A stretch of DNA of 64,000 nt. Source: Halanaerobium hydrogeniformans (GTDB lineage: Bacteria > Bacillota > Halanaerobiia > Halanaerobiales > Halanaerobiaceae). The position numbers and the translations under genes are program-made. Below, one piece after another: positions 11,168 to 20,664 of the stretch. Positions within the stretch are counted from its first letter, which is position 1; every line of letters starts with the position of its first letter. The notes under the pieces were generated by a model. It had not been told where the DNA came from. It made no database searches and was given only the letters and a program-made list of their open reading frames with translations. The DNA is taken from positions 2,232,001 through 2,296,000 of the forward strand of contig NC_014654.1 in assembly GCF_000166415.1 (NCBI RefSeq). Direction: 5' to 3'.

Positions 11168-11839
11168 TTATCTATGATCAAACTTATTTGCAACCCAATT
11201 ACCAAAATGTTGTAAAATCTGTACCATTAAAACTAAGATTACAATGGTCTCCAGCATGATAAGCAGCTGAAAGCGCTGATATCCATATCTAATCGCAATA
11301 TCGCCGAGACCACCCCCTCCAACTGCTCCAGCCATAGCTGAATAACTTACCAGGCTGATCGAAGTAAGGGTTAAACCTAATATTATTGCTGGAAGAGCCT
11401 CTGGCAACAATACTTTAAAAACAATCTGAGTAGGACTTGCTCCCATCGATTGGGCAGATTCTATAACTCCATCCTGTATTTCTAAAATTGCATTATCAGT
11501 TACCCGACCCATAAAGGGAATAGCAGCAAGTGAAAGTGGAACAACAGCTGCATTAGTACCGATAGAAGTACCTACAATCATTCTAGTAAACGGAATTACA
11601 GCAACCATTAAAATTATAAAAGGTATTGAACGACCAATATTAATGGTTCCATCAAGTATAAAATTAACAAATCTATTTGGTAAAATATGATCTTCTCTGG
11701 TGATGGTTGTAAATACTCCTAGAGGAATACCTGCAATTATTGCAAAAAAAAGTGACATAGCTACCATGTATAAAGTTTCTAAAGTGCCATTTATCATCAA
11801 ATCATTATATCTTGCCAGTTCTGAAATTAAATCAAACAT
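11168..11839 (-). CDS. metI: Methionine ABC transporter, permease
   Basis: A 223-residue inner-membrane permease with five to six membrane segments and the EAA loop (ESAQSMGASPTQIVFKVLLPEALPAII) that docks on the ATPase. I chose the ATG at 11837-11839 because GAGGTG precedes it. The ATG then overlaps the metN stop codon by 8 bases, which implies translational coupling. An in-frame ATG at 11857 would add six residues. It is the middle gene of metN-metI-metQ. Confidence 0.92.
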   Translation of the reverse strand: MFDLISELARYNDLMINGTLETLYMVAMSLFFAIIAGIPLGVFTTITREDHILPNRFVNFILDGTINIGRSIPFIILMVAVIPFTRMIVGTSIGTNAAVVPLSLAAIPFMGRVTDNAILEIQDGVIESAQSMGASPTQIVFKVLLPEALPAIILGLTLTSISLVSYSAMAGAVGGGGLGDIAIRYGYQRFQLLIMLETIVILVLMVQILQHFGNWVANKFDHR

Positions 11840-12854
11840 TGTCAAGCACCTCCACATTTAAACCTTCACTTTGCAGATAAGATATACTCTTTTCCACATT
11901 TTCTAAATCTCCTTCAAGATCTAAAATTAAGGTTCCAAAAGGAACACCCTGTATTTCATCTATGTTACCATATAAAATATTAGCATCTACAGAATAATGT
12001 TTAACTAGATCAGAAATATATGGCTTATGAGTTTTTTCGCCTACAAAAGTAATTCTAATTAATTCTCCAGGCCTTTTTTCTTTAATATATTCAACTATCC
12101 TGGGAGGTAAATTATAATCTATTACAGAACTTATAAACTTTTTAGTCAAATCTGTTTTAGGTCTGGCAAAAATGTCAAGCACTGATCCTTTTTCAATAAT
12201 TCTTCCCTCTTCTATTACAGCGACCCGATCACAAATATCTTTTATAACTCCCATCTCATGAGTAATTAAGATGATTGTCAAATTTAATTCTTCTCTTATT
12301 TTAGCAAGTAAATCTAAAATAGATTTTGTGCTTTCTGGATCTAGTGAAGAAGTTGCCTCATCAGATAATAAAAGGTCTGGGTCATTGGCCAGAGCTCTTG
12401 CAATTCCTACCCTCTGCTTTTGTCCACCTGATAGCTGAGCTGGATAATTATCTGCTTTATCAGCAAGGCCAACTAAATCAATTAATTCTTTAGCTTTTTT
12501 AATTCTTTGCTTTTTCGCTACACCAGCAATTTCTAAAGGAAAACTAACATTTCTTAATACAGTTCGTGAAGACAATAAATTAAAATGTTGAAAAATCATT
12601 CCAATCTTTTGTCTGGCCTGTCTTAAATTTAAAGAGCTTAAATCGGTTAGATTCACTTCATTAACCATAATTGAACCGGCTGTAGGGTCTTCTAAAAGAT
12701 TAAGCATTCTAATTAAAGTGCTTTTACCTGCTCCACTGGGCCCGATTATTCCAAATATCTCACCATCATTAATTTCTAGATTTAGTTCATTAATTGCTTC
12801 AATGCTTCCCTGTTCTGTATGATAATGTTTTGTTAAATCTTTTATTTTTATCAC
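11832..12854 (-). CDS. metN: Methionine ABC transporter, ATP-binding protein
   Basis: A 340-residue ATPase with Walker A (GPSGAGKST, about 39-47), Q-loop, signature LSGGQKQR, Walker B LLLSDEATSSLD and the H-loop ITHEM. The C-terminal 75 residues form the NIL domain (FVGEKTHKPYISDLV onward), which in MetN binds methionine for transinhibition. The length matches the family. It is the first gene of metNIQ, directly downstream of a SAM-I riboswitch, so import is shut down when SAM is plentiful. Confidence 0.95.
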   Translation of the reverse strand: MIKIKDLTKHYHTEQGSIEAINELNLEINDGEIFGIIGPSGAGKSTLIRMLNLLEDPTAGSIMVNEVNLTDLSSLNLRQARQKIGMIFQHFNLLSSRTVLRNVSFPLEIAGVAKKQRIKKAKELIDLVGLADKADNYPAQLSGGQKQRVGIARALANDPDLLLSDEATSSLDPESTKSILDLLAKIREELNLTIILITHEMGVIKDICDRVAVIEEGRIIEKGSVLDIFARPKTDLTKKFISSVIDYNLPPRIVEYIKEKRPGELIRITFVGEKTHKPYISDLVKHYSVDANILYGNIDEIQGVPFGTLILDLEGDLENVEKSISYLQSEGLNVEVLDNV

Positions 12855-12910: not shown

Positions 12911-13047
12911 AAAAAAATCCTCATGAGAGGATTAATTTACCTCTCATCTATCATTCCATAATTGGAATGCTGGAATTAGCACCTTACTTTAATATTTAAG
13001 TAGGTTGCCGGGCATCACAGGGCCATTCCCTCCGCCACTCTTGATGA
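12911..13047 (-). ncRNA. SAM-I (S-box) riboswitch with terminator
   Basis: Read on the minus strand, the leader contains the S-box conserved blocks in order: AAGAGTGGCGGAGGGAA, GGCCCTGTGATGCCCGGCAAC, GGTGCTAATTCCAGC, and GATGAGAGG closing the P1 helix. The aptamer covers about 13047-12940. A terminator hairpin follows (AATCCTC with GAGGATT at 12916-12933, then a run of T). Bases of the 3' P1 strand (GAGAGG) can pair with the CCTCTC of the terminator, giving the usual SAM-dependent switch. High SAM should end transcription before metN. Confidence 0.95.
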
Positions 13048-13078
13048 ATATATATTATATTTTATTAATTTAGTTAGA

Positions 13079-13361: not shown

Positions 13362-13733
13362 ATGAAAAATTTACTTCTCTTTTTAAAATGTATAGCCGAT
13401 GAAAATAGACTTAAAATTTTAAAACTACTACTTTCTGGTCCTTATTGTGTCTGCCAACTGCAGGAACTATTGGATAAATCGCAATCAAGTATCTCTCAAC
13501 ATTTATCATATTTTAAAGGATTAGATTTATTAAATGAAAGACAGAGCAGTAAGTGGACCTATTATTCCATTAATAGGAATGAATATGATAAATATCTTGC
13601 TGATCTAATAGCCCTAAATTCAAAATCTCTTAAAGAACTAGACTTAACAGACTTAGAAGGAAAATTAAAAAATCTTTCTGCAGCTGAAGTAATTAAAAAC
13701 GATGGAGAAACAATAAGGAGTTGTTGTAATTGA
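13362..13733 (+). CDS. ArsR/SmtB-family metalloregulator
   Basis: A 123-residue winged-helix repressor. DENRLKILKLLLSG and SQSSISQHLSYFKGLDLL are the helix-turn-helix core, and the wing is RQSSKWTYYSIN. Cys residues occur in PYCVCQLQEL (helix alpha-3 position, as in the CxC arsenic site of ArsR) and as a terminal SCCN. This suggests a thiol-bound arsenite or soft-metal sensor. It is the first gene of a four-gene operon. Its stop overlaps the TTG start of the permease by 4 bases (TTGA). A palindrome over its own promoter fits autoregulation. Confidence 0.88.
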   Translation: MKNLLLFLKCIADENRLKILKLLLSGPYCVCQLQELLDKSQSSISQHLSYFKGLDLLNERQSSKWTYYSINRNEYDKYLADLIALNSKSLKELDLTDLEGKLKNLSAAEVIKNDGETIRSCCN

Positions 13734-14686
13734 TAGATAGATTTGCTGAATTACTTGTTTATAACTTAATGGGACTTGATCAAGCTACAAGGCTTGGTAG
13801 CTCAGTTCATTTTTTCTTTTATGATACAATAAAGATAATTTTTCTGCTAAGTGTAATGATTTTTGCCATATCAATTATTCGCAGTTATTTTCCTCCAGAA
13901 AAAACTAAAAAATTATTAAGTAACCGTAAAAAATTTATGGGTAATATTTTAGCTTCATTATTAGGAGTTGTAACTCCCTTTTGTTCCTGTTCTTCAGTAC
14001 CAATCTTTATTGGCTTTGTTGAATCAGGCATACCACTTGGAATTACATTTTCCTTTTTAATAACATCACCAATAGTTAATCAGGTAGCTCTGGTAATGCT
14101 GTTTTCACTTTTCGGCTGGCAAATTGCCTCTATTTATTTGATTAGTGGTATTTTAGTCGGCATTATTGGTGGTCTTGTAATTGGGAAGCTGGGTATGGAA
14201 GATGAAGTTGAAGAATATGTATATAATATTCAAGCAGGAGAAACCGAAATAGAAGAATTAAGCTGGAATAAAAGATTAAGCTATGCTAAAGCACAGGTTA
14301 AAGAAATTGTTAGTGGTGTTTGGAAATATGTTGTCATTGGTATAGGTATTGGCGCTTTTATTCATGGTTATGCACCAGCAGATTTATTAAGTCAGTATGC
14401 AGGGCCAAATAATCCACTGGCAGTTATAGCAGCTGTTGGTTTAGGGATACCTCTTTATGCTAATGTAGTCGGTACTATTCCCATAGCTCAAGCATTAATT
14501 GGAAAAGGTGTGGCTATTGGTACAGCTCTTAGCTTTATGATGGCTACTACCGCTTTATCTGTACCAGCAATGATTATTCTGCGTAAAGTTATTAAACCAA
14601 AACTGCTGACAGTTTTTGTAACTGTTGTTGGTGTTTCAATAATCGGTGTAGGGTATATGTTTAACTTTTTAGTTAATATAATATAA
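13730..14686 (+). CDS. DUF318/ArsP-type permease 1
   Basis: A 318-residue membrane protein of the YraQ/ArsP (COG0701) family with about eight membrane segments. The first half carries VTPFCSCSSVPIFIGFV, with the vicinal cysteine motif CSCS that marks the family, and the second half repeats the fold (GIPLYANVVGTIPIAQALI). Known ArsP members export trivalent organoarsenicals, and others are uncharacterised. The start is TTG, with AAGGAG just upstream and overlap with arsR. It is followed after 18 bp by a second, related permease. Confidence 0.82.
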   Translation: MIDRFAELLVYNLMGLDQATRLGSSVHFFFYDTIKIIFLLSVMIFAISIIRSYFPPEKTKKLLSNRKKFMGNILASLLGVVTPFCSCSSVPIFIGFVESGIPLGITFSFLITSPIVNQVALVMLFSLFGWQIASIYLISGILVGIIGGLVIGKLGMEDEVEEYVYNIQAGETEIEELSWNKRLSYAKAQVKEIVSGVWKYVVIGIGIGAFIHGYAPADLLSQYAGPNNPLAVIAAVGLGIPLYANVVGTIPIAQALIGKGVAIGTALSFMMATTALSVPAMIILRKVIKPKLLTVFVTVVGVSIIGVGYMFNFLVNII

Positions 14687-14704
14687 GCTTTGGGAGGGAT
14701 ATAG

Positions 14705-15874
14705 GTGACAAAATCTAAAAAAATAATACTCTATATATCAGTTTTCGCAATGATTTATTTAATTCCTTTTCAGACAGAGCAGCTGCAGAGAGCAATAATT
14801 GAAGCTATAGAAATGCTGCAGTATTATGCTCGTGAACATGTTTTATTCTGTTTAATTCCTGCTTTCTTTATTGCAGGAGCTATAGCAAATTTCATTTCTA
14901 AAGATTCAATAATAAAATATTTTGGTGGTAAGACAAAAAAATGGATTTCTTATTCAGTTGCTTCAGTTTCTGGAGCGATCTTAGCAGTCTGTTCCTGTAC
15001 TGTATTACCTCTATTTGCAGGAATCTATAAAAGAGGGGCAGGGATTGGACCAGCTGTTGCTTTTCTCTTTTCAGGGCCAGCGATTAATGTTTTAGCTATT
15101 ATTTTAACAGCACGTGTATTAGGCTGGCAGCTTGGTCTGGCCAGAGCAGTTGGTGCAGTATTTTTCGCTTTAATTATAGGTCTTTTAATGGCAGCAATCT
15201 TTAGAGAATCTGATCAAAAAAGATTAGAAGATTTCGTCCAGGAAGAAGGTCAGGAACTCCCCCGCTCAGGTTTGCAAAATATAGTTTATTTTATTACAAT
15301 GATATTAATATTGATCTTTGCAACCTGGACCCAGCCTGAAGGAGCAACAGGTTTCTGGAATTTAGTATATCAATTTAAATGGCCTGCAGTAGCAGTTTTA
15401 TCAGTATTGTTAGCTTTAGAACTTTACGGTTGGTTTGAAAAGGATGAATTAAATAATTGGTTAGATGAAACATGGACTTTTGCCGAACAAATAACCCCAC
15501 TATTATTCGGTGGTGTCTTAGTAGCTGGATTTTTAATGGGAGCTCCCGGCAGTGATGCTGGCCTGATACCTCAAGAGTGGATATCAGCCTTAGTAGGAGG
15601 TAATTCTCTTTTAGCTAATTTTACAGCTTCAATTTTAGGTGCCTTTATGTATTTTGCTACTTTGACGGAAATTCCAATTTTACAGGGTTTATTAAACTCA
15701 GGCATGGGCCAGGGGCCTGCTCTGGCATTATTACTTGCTGGGCCTGCGTTAAGTTTACCCAATATGCTGGTAATTAGAAGTGTAATCGGAACTAAAAAAA
15801 CATTAGTCTTCGTCAGTATTGTTGTAGTTATGGCAACATTTACTGGTATGGTCTATGGTAATATTGTGCTTTAA
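14705..15874 (+). CDS. DUF318/ArsP-type permease 2
   Basis: A 389-residue membrane protein of the same COG0701 family as its upstream neighbour but longer. It has the motif AVCSCTVLPLFAGIYKRGAG in the first half and FATLTEIPILQGLLNSGMG in the second, with about ten membrane segments. The GTG start at 14705 follows GGGAGG. Pairs of such permeases with an ArsR regulator and a thioredoxin-like protein recur in anaerobes. Arsenic or another soft metal(loid) is the likely export substrate, but this is not proven from sequence. Confidence 0.82.
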   Translation: MTKSKKIILYISVFAMIYLIPFQTEQLQRAIIEAIEMLQYYAREHVLFCLIPAFFIAGAIANFISKDSIIKYFGGKTKKWISYSVASVSGAILAVCSCTVLPLFAGIYKRGAGIGPAVAFLFSGPAINVLAIILTARVLGWQLGLARAVGAVFFALIIGLLMAAIFRESDQKRLEDFVQEEGQELPRSGLQNIVYFITMILILIFATWTQPEGATGFWNLVYQFKWPAVAVLSVLLALELYGWFEKDELNNWLDETWTFAEQITPLLFGGVLVAGFLMGAPGSDAGLIPQEWISALVGGNSLLANFTASILGAFMYFATLTEIPILQGLLNSGMGQGPALALLLAGPALSLPNMLVIRSVIGTKKTLVFVSIVVVMATFTGMVYGNIVL

Positions 15875-15908
15875 TTAATTTAAATATATTATAAGGAGTG
15901 GTTTAATA

Positions 15909-16148
15909 ATGGAAATTAGAATTTATGGTCCTGGGTGTAGAAATTGTGTTAATTTAACTAAAAATGCTAAAAAAGCATTAGAAGAAACTGGTGTGGAGGC
16001 AGAAATTATCAAAGTAGAAGATATGCAAAAAATTATTGAAGCGGGAATTATGACAACTCCTGCTATAGGTATTAATGGCGAAGTTAAAATTAAAGGTAAA
16101 GTTGCAAGTGTAGAAGAAATTGTAGATTTAATCAATGCAACTGTTTAA
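15909..16148 (+). CDS. Small thioredoxin-like protein (redox-active CxxC)
   Basis: A 79-residue protein with a glutaredoxin/thioredoxin fold. It has YGPGCRNCVNL (CxxC active site at about residues 10-13), the cis-proline segment MTTPAIGINGEV, and a final helix. This is the TM0996/MTH895-type small redoxin family that often accompanies DUF318 permeases and ArsR regulators. It probably reduces the regulator, the permease cysteines or the metalloid substrate. It is the last gene of the operon, 34 bp after the second permease with AAGGAG, and is followed by a strong terminator. Confidence 0.88.
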   Translation: MEIRIYGPGCRNCVNLTKNAKKALEETGVEAEIIKVEDMQKIIEAGIMTTPAIGINGEVKIKGKVASVEEIVDLINATV

Positions 16149-16240: not shown

Positions 16241-17965
16241 TTAGATAAATAATAGACCAATTCTAGCAAAAATTCCTCCCACTAGAAAGGAAAACCCTAC
16301 TGTAAAAACAAATATCTTTGTAGCAAAGATAAAATTAAATTCACGGGCTAATATAGCTAAAACTGCTATACACGGTACATAAAAAAGTGCTACTACTGCA
16401 CCTACAAAAAGCTGAACAGAATTTAATCCCATCTCAAGTAATGGTAAAACAGCTAACTCCCGTCTTACTACTCCTAAAATCAGGGGAACTGAAGCTTCTG
16501 AGGGCATCAACAGCCAGTTTTCTATAACCGGTTGAAATATCCTTCCTATTTGTTCTAGAATCCCAAGTTCATAGAGAAGAGCTGCTGCTGCAATAGCATA
16601 AATCATCATTAAAGCTCCATCACTAATATACATTTTTAATCTTAACCAAACTTTTTTCAAAATCATTTTAGGGTCAGGTATTAAAAGTGGGGGGATTTCC
16701 AAAATCAAAGGTTCATTTTCTCCCTCAATACTCTTATCCATAACGATGGCAGCTCCTATAATAGCAAGAAAAGAAACAAGAAATACTAAAAACATCACCA
16801 AAATAGATTCTTCTGCTAAAAGAGAAATTAAAGCTCCTGTTTGTGAAATACAGGGTACAGCCAGTGAAATCAATGCAGCAACAGTTATTCTCTCTTTTCG
16901 AGTTGCTAAAGCTCTAGTAGCAGCTATACCAGGTATGGCACATCCATAACCTAAAAGCAGAGGTATAATATTACCGCCAGTTAATCCAATTTTATTGAAT
17001 AATCCATCCAGCAAAACCGCTAAACGCGGCATATATCCACTATCTTCTAACAAACTAAGAGCGGTATAAAAGGATAAAACATAGGGAAGCACAAGAGCAA
17101 ATGGCCACTCTAAACCTTTAATTAAAAAGCCATATTCACCAACTAAAATATTTCTGATTATACCTTCTGTAGTAAAAGCACTAACTAATCTATATATTAA
17201 TGGGAAAACAAGTGTCCTAAAAAAAGGTAATAATATATACTGTCTTAAACCCATTCCAATCCCTACAACTATGGCAAAAATGAATGCTAAAATCAAAATA
17301 GCCATCGGGATACCAGGCCAGGGTGAAGAAAGTTTATCTCCTAATTCTTCTCTTTTGTTTTTCTCTTTTTTATTTTTTTTATTTAAATATTTATTGCTCA
17401 ATCTTTCTGCATTTTCCCAACTAGCATTTATATTATTTGCTAAGTCATTTTGTGTTTCTATTTGAAGTTTTTCTCTAATTTTCTTTTTTAATTTTGATAA
17501 ACCATATTCTTTAACAGCTACAGTTTCTACTATATCTATCTCTAACTCTTCTGCAAAAGCTTCAGCTGCAAAGCTATAACCCTTTTCTTCTAATAAATCA
17601 ATCCTATTCAAGACTGCTATAGCCGGAATACCCTTTTCTAGAATTTGTAGGAGTAAATATATGCTACTTTCAATATTATTAGCATCAAGTACAACCACTA
17701 ATAATGAAGCTCCTTTATTAAGCATATCAACTGCAACCTGTTCTGCCTCATTACTCGAATTAAGAGTATAGGTACCAGGTACATCTATCAGGTAGATTTC
17801 ATCTTTTTCAAAAGTAATTCTACCTTTTTTATAATCTACGGTTGTACCAGAATAATTTGCTATTGCAGAATCCAAACCTGTAAGGTGATTGAAAATGACA
17901 CTTTTCCCTACATTTGGAGGCCCCATTAATAATACTTTATTTTCTTTATCATCAAATTGCGGCAT
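16241..17965 (-). CDS. feoB: Ferrous iron transporter B
   Basis: A 574-residue inner-membrane Fe(II) transporter. The N-terminal G domain has G1 GPPNVGKSVIFN (about 15-26), G2 NYSGTTVDY, G3 DVPGTYTL and G4 NRID. A GDI-type helical region follows (about 165-200), then the membrane part with two Gate domains (LLGYGCAIPGIAATRA, and VVRRELAVLPLL). It is shorter than E. coli FeoB (773 residues), mainly in loops and the C terminus, which is common in Firmicutes. It overlaps feoA by 14 bases. Tyr-Ser-Gly in G2 and the cysteine of GCAIPG are intact, so it is likely functional. Confidence 0.93.
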   Translation of the reverse strand: MPQFDDKENKVLLMGPPNVGKSVIFNHLTGLDSAIANYSGTTVDYKKGRITFEKDEIYLIDVPGTYTLNSSNEAEQVAVDMLNKGASLLVVVLDANNIESSIYLLLQILEKGIPAIAVLNRIDLLEEKGYSFAAEAFAEELEIDIVETVAVKEYGLSKLKKKIREKLQIETQNDLANNINASWENAERLSNKYLNKKNKKEKNKREELGDKLSSPWPGIPMAILILAFIFAIVVGIGMGLRQYILLPFFRTLVFPLIYRLVSAFTTEGIIRNILVGEYGFLIKGLEWPFALVLPYVLSFYTALSLLEDSGYMPRLAVLLDGLFNKIGLTGGNIIPLLLGYGCAIPGIAATRALATRKERITVAALISLAVPCISQTGALISLLAEESILVMFLVFLVSFLAIIGAAIVMDKSIEGENEPLILEIPPLLIPDPKMILKKVWLRLKMYISDGALMMIYAIAAAALLYELGILEQIGRIFQPVIENWLLMPSEASVPLILGVVRRELAVLPLLEMGLNSVQLFVGAVVALFYVPCIAVLAILAREFNFIFATKIFVFTVGFSFLVGGIFARIGLLFI

Positions 17966-18203
17966 GAGTTAATACCTCATGTCTAACTAAAATGTCTTTA
18001 GCTATATCTTTAGCAAGTGCTATCTGTCTACCTTCTATTTCCACAACAAGTGGCCCATTCCAGGCTTGAGAACTTAAGATCTTAATTTTTTTCCCTTTTC
18101 TTAAACCTAAAGGTGCCAAAAGAGAATGTTCGGGAACATATAGAATTTCAGCCTCAGAATTTTCGGGGATATTTTTTAGTGATAATTTTTTTTGCAATTG
18201 CAT
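17952..18203 (-). CDS. feoA: Ferrous iron transport protein A
   Basis: An 83-residue SH3-like protein. It has the FeoA core EILYVPEHSLLAPLGLRKGKKIKILS and the end VEIEGRQIALAKDIAKDILV. FeoA is the small cytoplasmic partner of FeoB. I chose the ATG at 18201-18203 because AAGGAG precedes it. An earlier in-frame ATG (18224) would place that ribosome site inside the gene. It overlaps feoB and lies 77 bp after the flippase-like gene in the same direction. Confidence 0.88.
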   Translation of the reverse strand: MQLQKKLSLKNIPENSEAEILYVPEHSLLAPLGLRKGKKIKILSSQAWNGPLVVEIEGRQIALAKDIAKDILVRHEVLTHAAI

Positions 18204-18245
18204 ATAATTCACTCCTTTATACATAGTTTATATATAGTTTCTAGA

Positions 18246-18264
18246 ATATAAGACCAGCTTATAT
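18246..18264. promoter_or_regulatory. Dyad upstream of feoA
   Basis: ATATAAG and CTTATAT form 7-bp arms around the 5-bp spacer ACCAG, about 45 bp before the feoA start. It could be an operator or a weak hairpin inside a longer transcript. It does not match the Fur consensus. Confidence 0.3.
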
Positions 18265-18279
18265 TTAGGAATAATAGAT

Positions 18280-19254
18280 TTAAATTAAAAATTCTTTTTT
18301 GTTAAAAAATAGATACCGGGATATATTAATTGATGCCAAAGTAGATAAAAACAAAGGAAACCAAAAAGTAGCAAATCTGAGTATTAAAGCAATTGTAAGT
18401 CCTTCTGCATAAGAAATCTCTGCTTGTGTTAAAATCAGAGCCATCACTGCTTCAAAGCTTCCTAAACCACCAGGCGAAATAGGTAGTAAAGCAATTAAAT
18501 AAGCTAAAAATGTAGCAGTTATAATCAAAATTGGACTAACATCATAGGCTAAATAATCGGCAATTAAATAAGTTTTTACTGGATAAAGCAACCAAAATAA
18601 AGCTGCAATAATTATTAAATACAATAACTCTTTAAAATTACATAGATTAAAAGTATTTGCAATAATATTTTTTGATTTATCTTTAAAAGTATTAATTTTA
18701 AGTTTTAAATTATTACTAATAGAAAAACAGATCATAAAAACCAGGAAAAGGAAAAACAAAGAATAAAATATTATATTAATATTCAAATTAAAATCAATAT
18801 GCTGAACTAAAAACCTTTTATTAGAGATAAAAAGAATAAATGCAAAAATTAAAAACGGTATAAAAGTAGTTAATTTTTGAACTGCGATATAAGGAATAAA
18901 TTCGCTAACTTCTATTCCTGTTATTTTATTATAAAGGTAAACCTTTGCTGACTCTCCTCCTAGTTTAGCAGAAGGAGTAATACTCTCAATAAAAGAAGCA
19001 GCTAAATTTATATTTATAATATCACTAAATTTAGCTTTCTTTTGCCCAGTAAATTTAAATAAGAATTTCCACTGAAAAGCTAATAGAAGAATAGTAGAAA
19101 TTTGCAGTAAAATTAAGGCAGTGATAAGCCTATATGATATCTGATTAATGATATTTGCAATTTCAAGTCTTCCCTGCCAAATAGTACGCGAAAGAAATAT
19201 TATAATTAAAACAGCAAAGCTATATTTAATAACCTTTATTTTTTTAGCCTTCAT
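18280..19254 (-). CDS. Flippase-like integral membrane protein (UPF0104/LPG-synthase TM family)
   Basis: A 324-residue protein with about eight membrane segments and the family signature near residue 80-110, ITPSAKLGGESAKVYLY. The late motif LPISPGGLGSFEAVMALIL is also typical of the AglD/MprF transmembrane family (COG0392). Members translocate or modify lipids or lipid-linked sugars. Some act alone as presumed flippases, as here, where no synthase domain is attached. It starts 2 bp after the stop of the upstream methyltransferase-like gene, so the two are surely co-transcribed. Its role next to feoAB is unknown. Confidence 0.75.
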   Translation of the reverse strand: MKAKKIKVIKYSFAVLIIIFLSRTIWQGRLEIANIINQISYRLITALILLQISTILLLAFQWKFLFKFTGQKKAKFSDIININLAASFIESITPSAKLGGESAKVYLYNKITGIEVSEFIPYIAVQKLTTFIPFLIFAFILFISNKRFLVQHIDFNLNINIIFYSLFFLFLVFMICFSISNNLKLKINTFKDKSKNIIANTFNLCNFKELLYLIIIAALFWLLYPVKTYLIADYLAYDVSPILIITATFLAYLIALLPISPGGLGSFEAVMALILTQAEISYAEGLTIALILRFATFWFPLFLSTLASINISRYLFFNKKEFLI

Positions 19255-19256
19255 TT

Positions 19257-19829
19257 TTATAAACTCCTATCGAAGTCAAAGCAAAGAGTTTTGTCAAAGG
19301 TGAGAAAATTTTGTTTTACTTTCGAAAAAATTGCTTCACTTGGAAGTTCTAATTTATCATATGCTTTGTAAAATTTTTTTCTAGGTTCTCTGATCAGAAA
19401 TTTTTTGATCTTTTTATCTTTAGCTAATCTTATCTTTTTATAAATTTCATTTTTACCTACTGTTTGTAGAGCAGCTAAAACTTTAGAATAATTGCAATTC
19501 TCTAGAGCCTTATCTGCAGACAAATGAAGAAATTCAATCTGTTCCTTTGATATTTTAAGTTTTTTCATAAGCTTTTGAGCTTGTAAAATGGCATTTCTGT
19601 CATAATCAACTGCAATGACCTTAGCAGCACTTAATTTATTAATATAATAAGCTGTAAAAGGTAAAGCTCCACAGCCGATGTTTAATACTATATCTTCAGA
19701 ATTGATATCACCCAATTTTATTTCTTTAGCAACTGTTTTTTTATAAGGTCTAGCATAAATTTTAAATAACAAATTATTTGCCTGAGCTTTTTTTTCGATT
19801 TTTTGAATTATTTTTCTGATCAATTTCAT
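19257..19829 (-). CDS. Nicotianamine-synthase-like methyltransferase-fold protein 2
   Basis: A 190-residue protein starting at the ATG at 19827-19829, preceded by GAGGAG. The earlier in-frame ATG at 19844 overlaps that ribosome site. It has a Rossmann-type SAM site: VLNIGCGALPFTAYYI as motif I, then VIAVDYDRNAIL with the acidic ribose-binding residue. The G(S/C)G-x-x-P-x-T-A pattern resembles nicotianamine synthase (GSGPLPLT) more than ordinary methyltransferases, but it is shorter than plant or archaeal NAS and the call is tentative. It lies 51 bp after a paralogue-like gene and 2 bp before the membrane protein. Confidence 0.55.
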   Translation of the reverse strand: MKLIRKIIQKIEKKAQANNLLFKIYARPYKKTVAKEIKLGDINSEDIVLNIGCGALPFTAYYINKLSAAKVIAVDYDRNAILQAQKLMKKLKISKEQIEFLHLSADKALENCNYSKVLAALQTVGKNEIYKKIRLAKDKKIKKFLIREPRKKFYKAYDKLELPSEAIFSKVKQNFLTFDKTLCFDFDRSL

Positions 19830-19895
19830 CTTTAAACTCCTCATTATTTAAAATTTAGATAATGAAATTCATTATCGATTAAGCTTTAAAAAAAA

Positions 19896-20498
19896 TTATT
19901 CTACTTCTAATAAACATGATTTCTTAGCTTTGATTATTTTTGTGGTTTTACATTTTTCAATCTTACTAAAACTACGTGGACAAATATAATCATAGAATTT
20001 GCACAACCAGGATGCCGGATTTCTGTAAATGATTTTGGTACCTGATCTTGATTCTTTTATCAGTTTTTTTAAAATATTTTTTTTGCTTTTAACATGTAGT
20101 GAAATCCAGACTGCATCATATTTTAAATAATTAATCTCTTCTTTACCATTACCTGCTAAAATATTTATTTTATTATCCACTTTTAAGTCTTTTAAATACT
20201 TTTTTGAAGTTTTTATAGCTTCTGGATCAATCTCAACTCCATCTACAAAATAACCTTTCCTGGCAAGATAAACAGCTGTCATTGGTCTTGGTCCACTGCC
20301 AATATGGAGTATTTTGCTACCTTTTTTCAATTCTGATAATTCTAATTCAGAAGCAATCAAACGATTATAGAAAAACTTGTCATAAAGTTCACCTGTATAG
20401 CTGATCTTGTTAAAAGAAGCTTCTAATTTTTGTAGAGCATTACAAGCTTTTTTATGAAAGTTTTCTTTGAAATTGCTGATTATATTTCTTGCTAACAT
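19896..20498 (-). CDS. Nicotianamine-synthase-like methyltransferase-fold protein 1
   Basis: A 200-residue protein with a short helical N-terminal region (1-55) and then a SAM-binding fold: ILHIGSGPRPMTAVYLARKG, and VDGVEIDPEAIKTSKKYL. The motif GSGP-x-P-x-T-x-x-x-LA is the NAS/CntL-type signature, where the enzyme transfers aminobutyrate from SAM to make nicotianamine-like metallophores. Later YDAVWISLHVKSK and GTKIIYRNP sit where NAS has its strand-4 and strand-5 motifs. The start has GGAGG at good spacing. It is the first gene of an apparent five-gene run ending in feoB. It could still be a plain methyltransferase. Confidence 0.6.
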   Translation of the reverse strand: MLARNIISNFKENFHKKACNALQKLEASFNKISYTGELYDKFFYNRLIASELELSELKKGSKILHIGSGPRPMTAVYLARKGYFVDGVEIDPEAIKTSKKYLKDLKVDNKINILAGNGKEEINYLKYDAVWISLHVKSKKNILKKLIKESRSGTKIIYRNPASWLCKFYDYICPRSFSKIEKCKTTKIIKAKKSCLLEVE

Positions 20499-20639: not shown

Positions 20640-20664
20640 CTTATTAAGAATAATTCTTAATAAG
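20640..20664. promoter_or_regulatory. 25-bp palindrome upstream of the NAS-like/feo gene run
   Basis: Perfect 12-bp arms (CTTATTAAGAAT and ATTCTTAATAAG) around a single central A. The centre is a 7-1-7 dyad (TAAGAAT-A-ATTCTTA), the architecture used by Fur-family regulators, with 10 of 14 bases in common with the Fur consensus. It lies 142 bp before the first gene of the run. The rest of the 314-bp gap (20499-20812) shows nothing but this dyad and the acnB terminator. Confidence 0.5.

Follow-up and report, generated by a model that had tools for sequence, protein, structure and literature searches.

The window analyzed in this study, a 64,000-nucleotide stretch of the Halanaerobium hydrogeniformans genome, contains five minus-strand open reading frames (ORFs) encoding, in this order, two small proteins related to nicotianamine synthase (NAS) (referred to as NAS-A and NAS-B, or A and B), a flippase-like membrane protein, FeoA, and FeoB. 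This gene set was found to be a conserved operon, and both gene order and gene fusions link NAS to FeoA/FeoB and to an MprF-like flippase. The host is a haloalkaliphile from Soap Lake (PMC4237134).

Gene organization in the window

The first four genes are separated by 51, 2, and 55 nt, respectively, and feoA and feoB overlap by 14 nt (Table 1). The ORFs and their domains agreed with the initial annotation, made from the sequence alone, of a NAS-like pair leading through a 2-bp gap to a flippase gene and then to feoA and feoB on one strand. Domains of both FeoA and FeoB were found in the window proteins with Pfam. FeoB was short, and since TIGR00437 matched it in two separate stretches, the region behind the GTPase domain may be reduced. 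The flippase-like protein scored 122.9 bits with PF03706 (cut-off, 33.4), 99.1 bits with TIGR00374 (cut-off, 43.2), and 49 bits with NF033480 (MprF). The LPG_synthase_TM/MprF-type flippase family acts on lipids, and this membership suggests lipid flipping by the window protein.

Table 1. Coordinates of the five genes and the upstream palindrome in the window
Feature	Position	Strand	Description
NAS-A	20498-19896	-	200 aa; putative short NAS-branch S-adenosylmethionine (SAM) enzyme, clade A
NAS-B	19844-19257	-	195 aa; putative short NAS-branch SAM enzyme, clade B
Flippase-like membrane protein	19254-18280	-	324 aa; LPG_synthase_TM, MprF flippase family
FeoA	18224-17952	-	90 aa; PF04023, 47.7 bits
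FeoB	17965-16241	-	574 aa; FeoB_N, Gate, FeoB_C; TIGR00437, 323 bits (over cut-off)
25-bp perfect palindrome CTTATTAAGAATTATTCTTAATAAG	20640-20664	.	~140 nt ahead of NAS-A; divergent form of a Fur-box-like site, with AAT-N-ATT core

Relationship of NAS-A and NAS-B to nicotianamine synthase

NAS-A passed the NAS model PF03059 (28.5 bits; cut-off, 27.1), and NAS-B alone fell below the cut-off and scored best with generic methyltransferase Pfam models. When single sequences were searched, NAS-A matched thermonicotianamine synthase (MtNAS; 9e-12), and NAS-B weakly matched CntL; the scores of the small proteins with NF033601 (CntL) were 34-36 bits against a cut-off of 350. Profiles built from 21 relatives of NAS-A and 19 of NAS-B placed both nearer to NAS/CntL than to ordinary methyltransferases: 1.3e-21 (MtNAS), 4e-14 (CntL), and 7e-8 (best ordinary methyltransferase) for NAS-A, and 8e-15, 5e-13, and 6e-5, respectively, for NAS-B. 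The GxGxxPxTA SAM-binding motif, pointed out in the initial annotation, occurs as GSGPRPMTA and GCGALPFTA in the two proteins and was conserved in their relatives, which formed separate A and B clades in the tree.

MtNAS was also the closest match of both predicted structures (pLDDT: 89.5 for NAS-A and 90.4 for NAS-B). For NAS-A (Z 20.4, 198 residues, root-mean-square deviation 5.9), the nearest unrelated fold followed with a margin of less than 2 Z units, and many methyltransferases stood just under NAS. For NAS-B (Z 19.6, 190 residues, root-mean-square deviation 3.1), the margin was 3.7 Z units, and the six best entries were all NAS or CntL.

This likeness was limited to the SAM-binding part. 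The N-terminal domain of NAS was absent from NAS-A and NAS-B, in which only ~45 residues (two predicted helices) precede the Rossmann fold, compared with ~105 in NAS. Mutants of AtNAS1 have shown that Glu77 and Tyr106, the counterparts of the proposed catalytic residues in MtNAS, are essential (PMC10248798). These correspond to Glu81 (mutated in PDB 3FPG) and Tyr107 of MtNAS, with the numbering fixed via a full-length bacterial NAS (L092), and the Glu of CntL is E84. The catalytic Tyr was kept as Tyr44 of NAS-A (in at least 90% of relatives) and Tyr34 of NAS-B (invariant). An invariant Glu (Glu26 of NAS-A and Glu17 of NAS-B) was considered as the counterpart of Glu81 and rejected, because the alignment places it at MtNAS Glu90 and CntL Glu92, eight to nine residues off, although it might stand in for Glu81 spatially. 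The proposed resemblance to NAS and CntL was thus borne out by profile, fold, and the catalytic Tyr, and not by the N-terminal domain or a recognizable Glu81. NAS-A and NAS-B belong to the NAS branch, with an altered acceptor site, and are not proven nicotianamine synthases.

The short NAS proteins were basic, with a median isoelectric point (pI) of 9.1-9.4 versus 4.9-6.1 for the full-length NAS/CntL in this study. The pI values of H. hydrogeniformans NAS-A and NAS-B were 9.7 and 9.9, and those of neighbouring proteins were 5-6. Such a charge suits enzymes working on anionic membranes. Full-length NAS was also found in bacteria of the phylum (L092:240-1190 and L137:3254-4057); since the former matched MtNAS with 5e-89, NAS of the archaeal type also occurs outside archaea.

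Linkage to feoAB, phosphatidylserine synthase, and Fur-type sites

The short-NAS profile matched in 47 of 398 genomes of the phylum. When full-length, CntL-like, and fragment matches were excluded, 41 genomes were left, and the short NAS adjoined feoB in 40 of these; the sole exception was G142, whose short NAS has another setting (L098). Linkage to feoAB was therefore kept in relatives, and the best matches were not lipid or RNA methyltransferases, the two respects in which the initial annotation could have failed. These and the following counts come partly from draft genomes, in which a missing gene is weak evidence, and related genomes are not independent; the named-organism sample comprised 11 loci. 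The module was also found in a Spirochaetaceae metagenome-assembled genome (MAG), Dehalococcoidia (Chloroflexota), and a Syntrophomonadaceae MAG. The same genes are found together across many families although their sequences have diverged strongly, so the set is not due to chance. Within one class, A and B occur together in 20 genomes, as a rule in a single operon that includes feoA and feoB, and frequently in the order B-flippase-A-feoA-feoB; A sits away from the B operon in G023, G029, and G046. NAS-A was fused to FeoA at eight loci (L053, L056, L057, L060-L063, and L074) and to the flippase at one (L110, a one-contig genome).

Several other arrangements were observed. In G029, the A::FeoA fusion has a second feoB of its own (L057:7475-10112, minus strand) and is separate from the B-flippase-feoA-feoB operon (L058). 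Short NAS genes not linked to feoAB (L104, L112, L118, L130, L136, and L098) were mostly second copies, the genome holding a Feo-linked copy as well. A YibE/F-like membrane protein (PF07907; 265 bits at L050) is encoded just 3' of feoB or the flippase gene in four genomes of the above class (L047, L049, L050, and L064), near which DUF2325 proteins also recur. A literature search found no description of NAS or PS (phosphatidylserine) synthase genes in feo operons; a survey of opine zincophores began from the dehydrogenase (PMC7438024) and would therefore miss feo-linked NAS.

The operon has the form (feoA-)feoB-NAS-flippase-pss in 19 genomes, which belong to nine families; pss mostly overlaps or abuts the flippase gene. 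The pss gene encodes a CDP-alcohol phosphatidyltransferase that most resembles PS synthase and probably is one, with the DGxxAR...GxxxDxxxD motif intact in all copies and TIGR00473 scores of 88-138 bits (four at or over the cut-off of 107). It was the sole strong match to this model in the 19 genomes; a second, weaker match (63-70 bits) was found in G099, G139, and G173. None of the 19 genomes has PS decarboxylase, so PS would not be made there for phosphatidylethanolamine. PS synthase was present in all 34 genomes with a single operon NAS, compared with 146/396 (37%) of the phylum background. When tested, this association (33/33 versus 112/356) gave p = 6e-16 by genome and about 1e-9 by family (18/18).

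The operons are probably under Fur control, as judged from predicted operator sites. Among 52 loci, searched within 300 bp upstream or just past the start, the TGARAATNATTYTCA site was found at 36 with up to two mismatches (shuffled mean 1.55, never more than 5 in 200 sets) and at 27 with one mismatch (0.11 in shuffles), an enrichment somewhat flattered because the consensus was picked after palindromes had been seen in the same sequences. The palindrome in the window differs from this consensus by two mismatches, and is the site of the single match to TTAAGAATNATTCTTAA in the whole window. A canonical Fur box (TGATAATNATTATCA) was rejected for this operon, since the nearest was a 3-mismatch site; the palindrome is a divergent form. 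A gene for Fur or a DtxR-type repressor adjoins some operons.

The NAS pair was found in two of the 12 Halanaerobium genomes searched: H. hydrogeniformans and H. polyolivorans (L066). Among the named organisms with close relatives of the pair are Fuchsiella alkaliacetigena, Halonatronum saccharophilum, and CSSed/T1Sed bins; we take these to be soda-lake organisms. Such hosts fit a role under alkaline conditions, in which iron has its lowest solubility; the wider hosts need not be alkaliphiles.

Elsewhere in the window, a SAM-I (S-box) riboswitch (12941-13050, minus strand; 90.7 bits) immediately precedes a gene (11832-12854) for an ABC-transporter ATPase resembling the methionine importer MetN, as judged by eye only. 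The region convergent with feoB (13362-16148, plus strand) contains, by eye from the ORF list, genes for an ArsR-like regulator, a pair of similar membrane proteins that look like permeases, and a small redox-like protein with a CxxC motif.

Possible function and comparison with known systems

We consider it nearly an even chance that the gene set is an accessory module of FeoAB uptake, which makes a flipped, iron-binding lipid head group. A more specific form of this proposal, which we put forward tentatively and at somewhat less than even odds, is a lipid-anchored metallophore: the NAS-type enzymes would extend PS, or a SAM-derived amino-acid lipid in bacteria without PS, to a nicotianamine-like head group, which the MprF-type flippase would display to supply FeoB with iron. 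In this reaction, SAM would donate 3-amino-3-carboxypropyl units, and a membrane phospholipid would receive them on its head group. In organisms with one NAS, the acceptor would probably be the serine amine of PS, which is suitable because it has a free α-amine and a carboxylate, as do the acceptors of NAS and CntL. After transfer to the outer leaflet by the flippase, the amines, carboxylates, and phosphate of the lipid would bind Fe2+ and pass it to FeoB; such gathering would be of benefit at alkaline pH, at which little iron is available. PS synthase, in the operon or genome, and the MprF-type flippase point to a lipid-bound molecule rather than a soluble, secreted one.

Several observations weigh against this proposal. 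The A::FeoA fusion sets A on the cytosolic side, where a soluble chelator would fit too. No Glu is found in NAS-A or NAS-B at the position aligned with MtNAS Glu81, FeoA is also basic, as are the short NAS enzymes, and the flippase gene does not adjoin in a few operons with two NAS. Furthermore, the two-NAS genomes, including H. hydrogeniformans, are without PS, the proposed acceptor: PS synthase was present in only one of the 27 genomes of this (A + B) type, and much of the contrast with one-NAS genomes comes from a single class, few of whose genomes have pssA in any case (5/59). PS as a universal acceptor was rejected for these genomes, as pssA is missing there. Outside that class, the contrast persists (pssA in 1/7 two-NAS versus 33/33 one-NAS genomes; p = 2e-6), and G055, which alone within the class has a single NAS, does have pssA, with one copy a few genes upstream of the feo operon. 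Genomes with B and without A occur at two places inside clade B, and all have pssA. Since such genomes carry pssA and A + B genomes almost never do, A and PS synthase appear to be interchangeable. In two-NAS organisms, one enzyme, probably A, might install an amino-acid head group, which B would then extend. BtaA (PF11899) was rejected as the source of an amino-acid lipid in two-NAS genomes, because no match over the cut-off was found in the 18 genomes tested.

The main rival explanation, which we regard as unlikely on balance, is that A and B make a soluble nicotianamine-like chelator, namely, a small metallophore or an Fe2+ chaperone of the cytosol, which would be exported by the flippase-family protein, or loaded with iron by A at the cytosolic face of FeoB via FeoA. 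All characterized NAS/CntL enzymes yield soluble products (PMC10248798), and the A::FeoA fusions would place A by FeoB. On the other hand, this explanation leaves the association with PS synthase unexplained, the flippase family handles lipids, and the NAS domain that encloses soluble substrates is missing. By ORF listing, there is also no opine dehydrogenase in the Feo-type loci (it is present at the control locus L100), and no metallophore importer or other dedicated metallophore transporter in the operons. The suggestion of a route for a metal-binding small molecule linked to ferrous iron uptake therefore retains its kinship with NAS and its linkage to feoAB, while its product may be bound to a lipid.

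It is even less probable that the two proteins methylate lipid head groups, or modify lipids in another way, and make nothing that binds metal; their effect would be to tune the membrane near FeoB or the charge of the outer leaflet. The links to PS synthase and the flippase would be accounted for, Glu81 is not conserved, and the fold is common to methyltransferases, many of which scored just below NAS for A; however, the profiles favour the NAS branch over any methyltransferase by 13 orders of magnitude for A and 9 for B, and the strict association with feoAB and the Fur-type sites argue for a role in iron. That A (and B) might modify FeoA or FeoB after translation, and so switch transport on or off, is suggested by the A::FeoA fusions and is nevertheless highly improbable, since this leaves the flippase and PS synthase unexplained, and we know of no protein substrates for the NAS branch. 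We give virtually no credence to unrelated, ordinary methyltransferases adjoining feoAB by happenstance: the preference of B alone for generic methyltransferase models would agree with this, whereas profile, fold, and a linkage kept in tens of families, together with the fusions and Fur-type sites, contradict it.

Bacteria import ferrous iron mainly through FeoB, and, to our knowledge, the manner in which Fe2+ is gathered for it and the role of FeoA are both open questions. Both become directly accessible through an enzyme family that is fused to FeoA and linked with a lipid flippase. If a chelating lipid is made, it would represent a new class of metallophore, not lost by diffusion and suited to iron-poor alkaline waters, and nicotianamine-type chemistry would have been put to a new use.

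Among known systems, MtNAS (PDB 3FPE and 3O31) and plant NAS (PF03059) share with NAS-A and NAS-B the SAM-binding domain, GxGPxPxT motif, and catalytic Tyr (Tyr107), and were the best matches by profile and fold; however, they are longer (~290 versus ~195 aa), with the N-terminal domain and Glu81, and the operon setting with feoAB and the flippase distinguishes the short enzymes from them. CntL, the D-histidine aminobutanoyltransferase of staphylopine synthesis, was the second-best relative by profile and fold, but partners with opine dehydrogenase (as seen at L100) and Opp-type transporters, neither of which is encoded in Feo-type operons. The flippase-like protein belongs to the same membrane domain family as the flippase domain of MprF (TIGR00374), and differs from MprF in having no lysyl-phosphatidylglycerol synthetase domain and in being tied to NAS and feoAB. 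FeoA and FeoB are present with overlapping genes, as in FeoAB ferrous iron uptake, to which the NAS and flippase genes and, in relatives, the PS synthase gene and A::FeoA fusions are added. BtaA, the betaine-lipid enzyme, puts the aminocarboxypropyl group of SAM on a lipid; it belongs to a different protein family, and is comparable to the short NAS enzymes only in their proposed activity.

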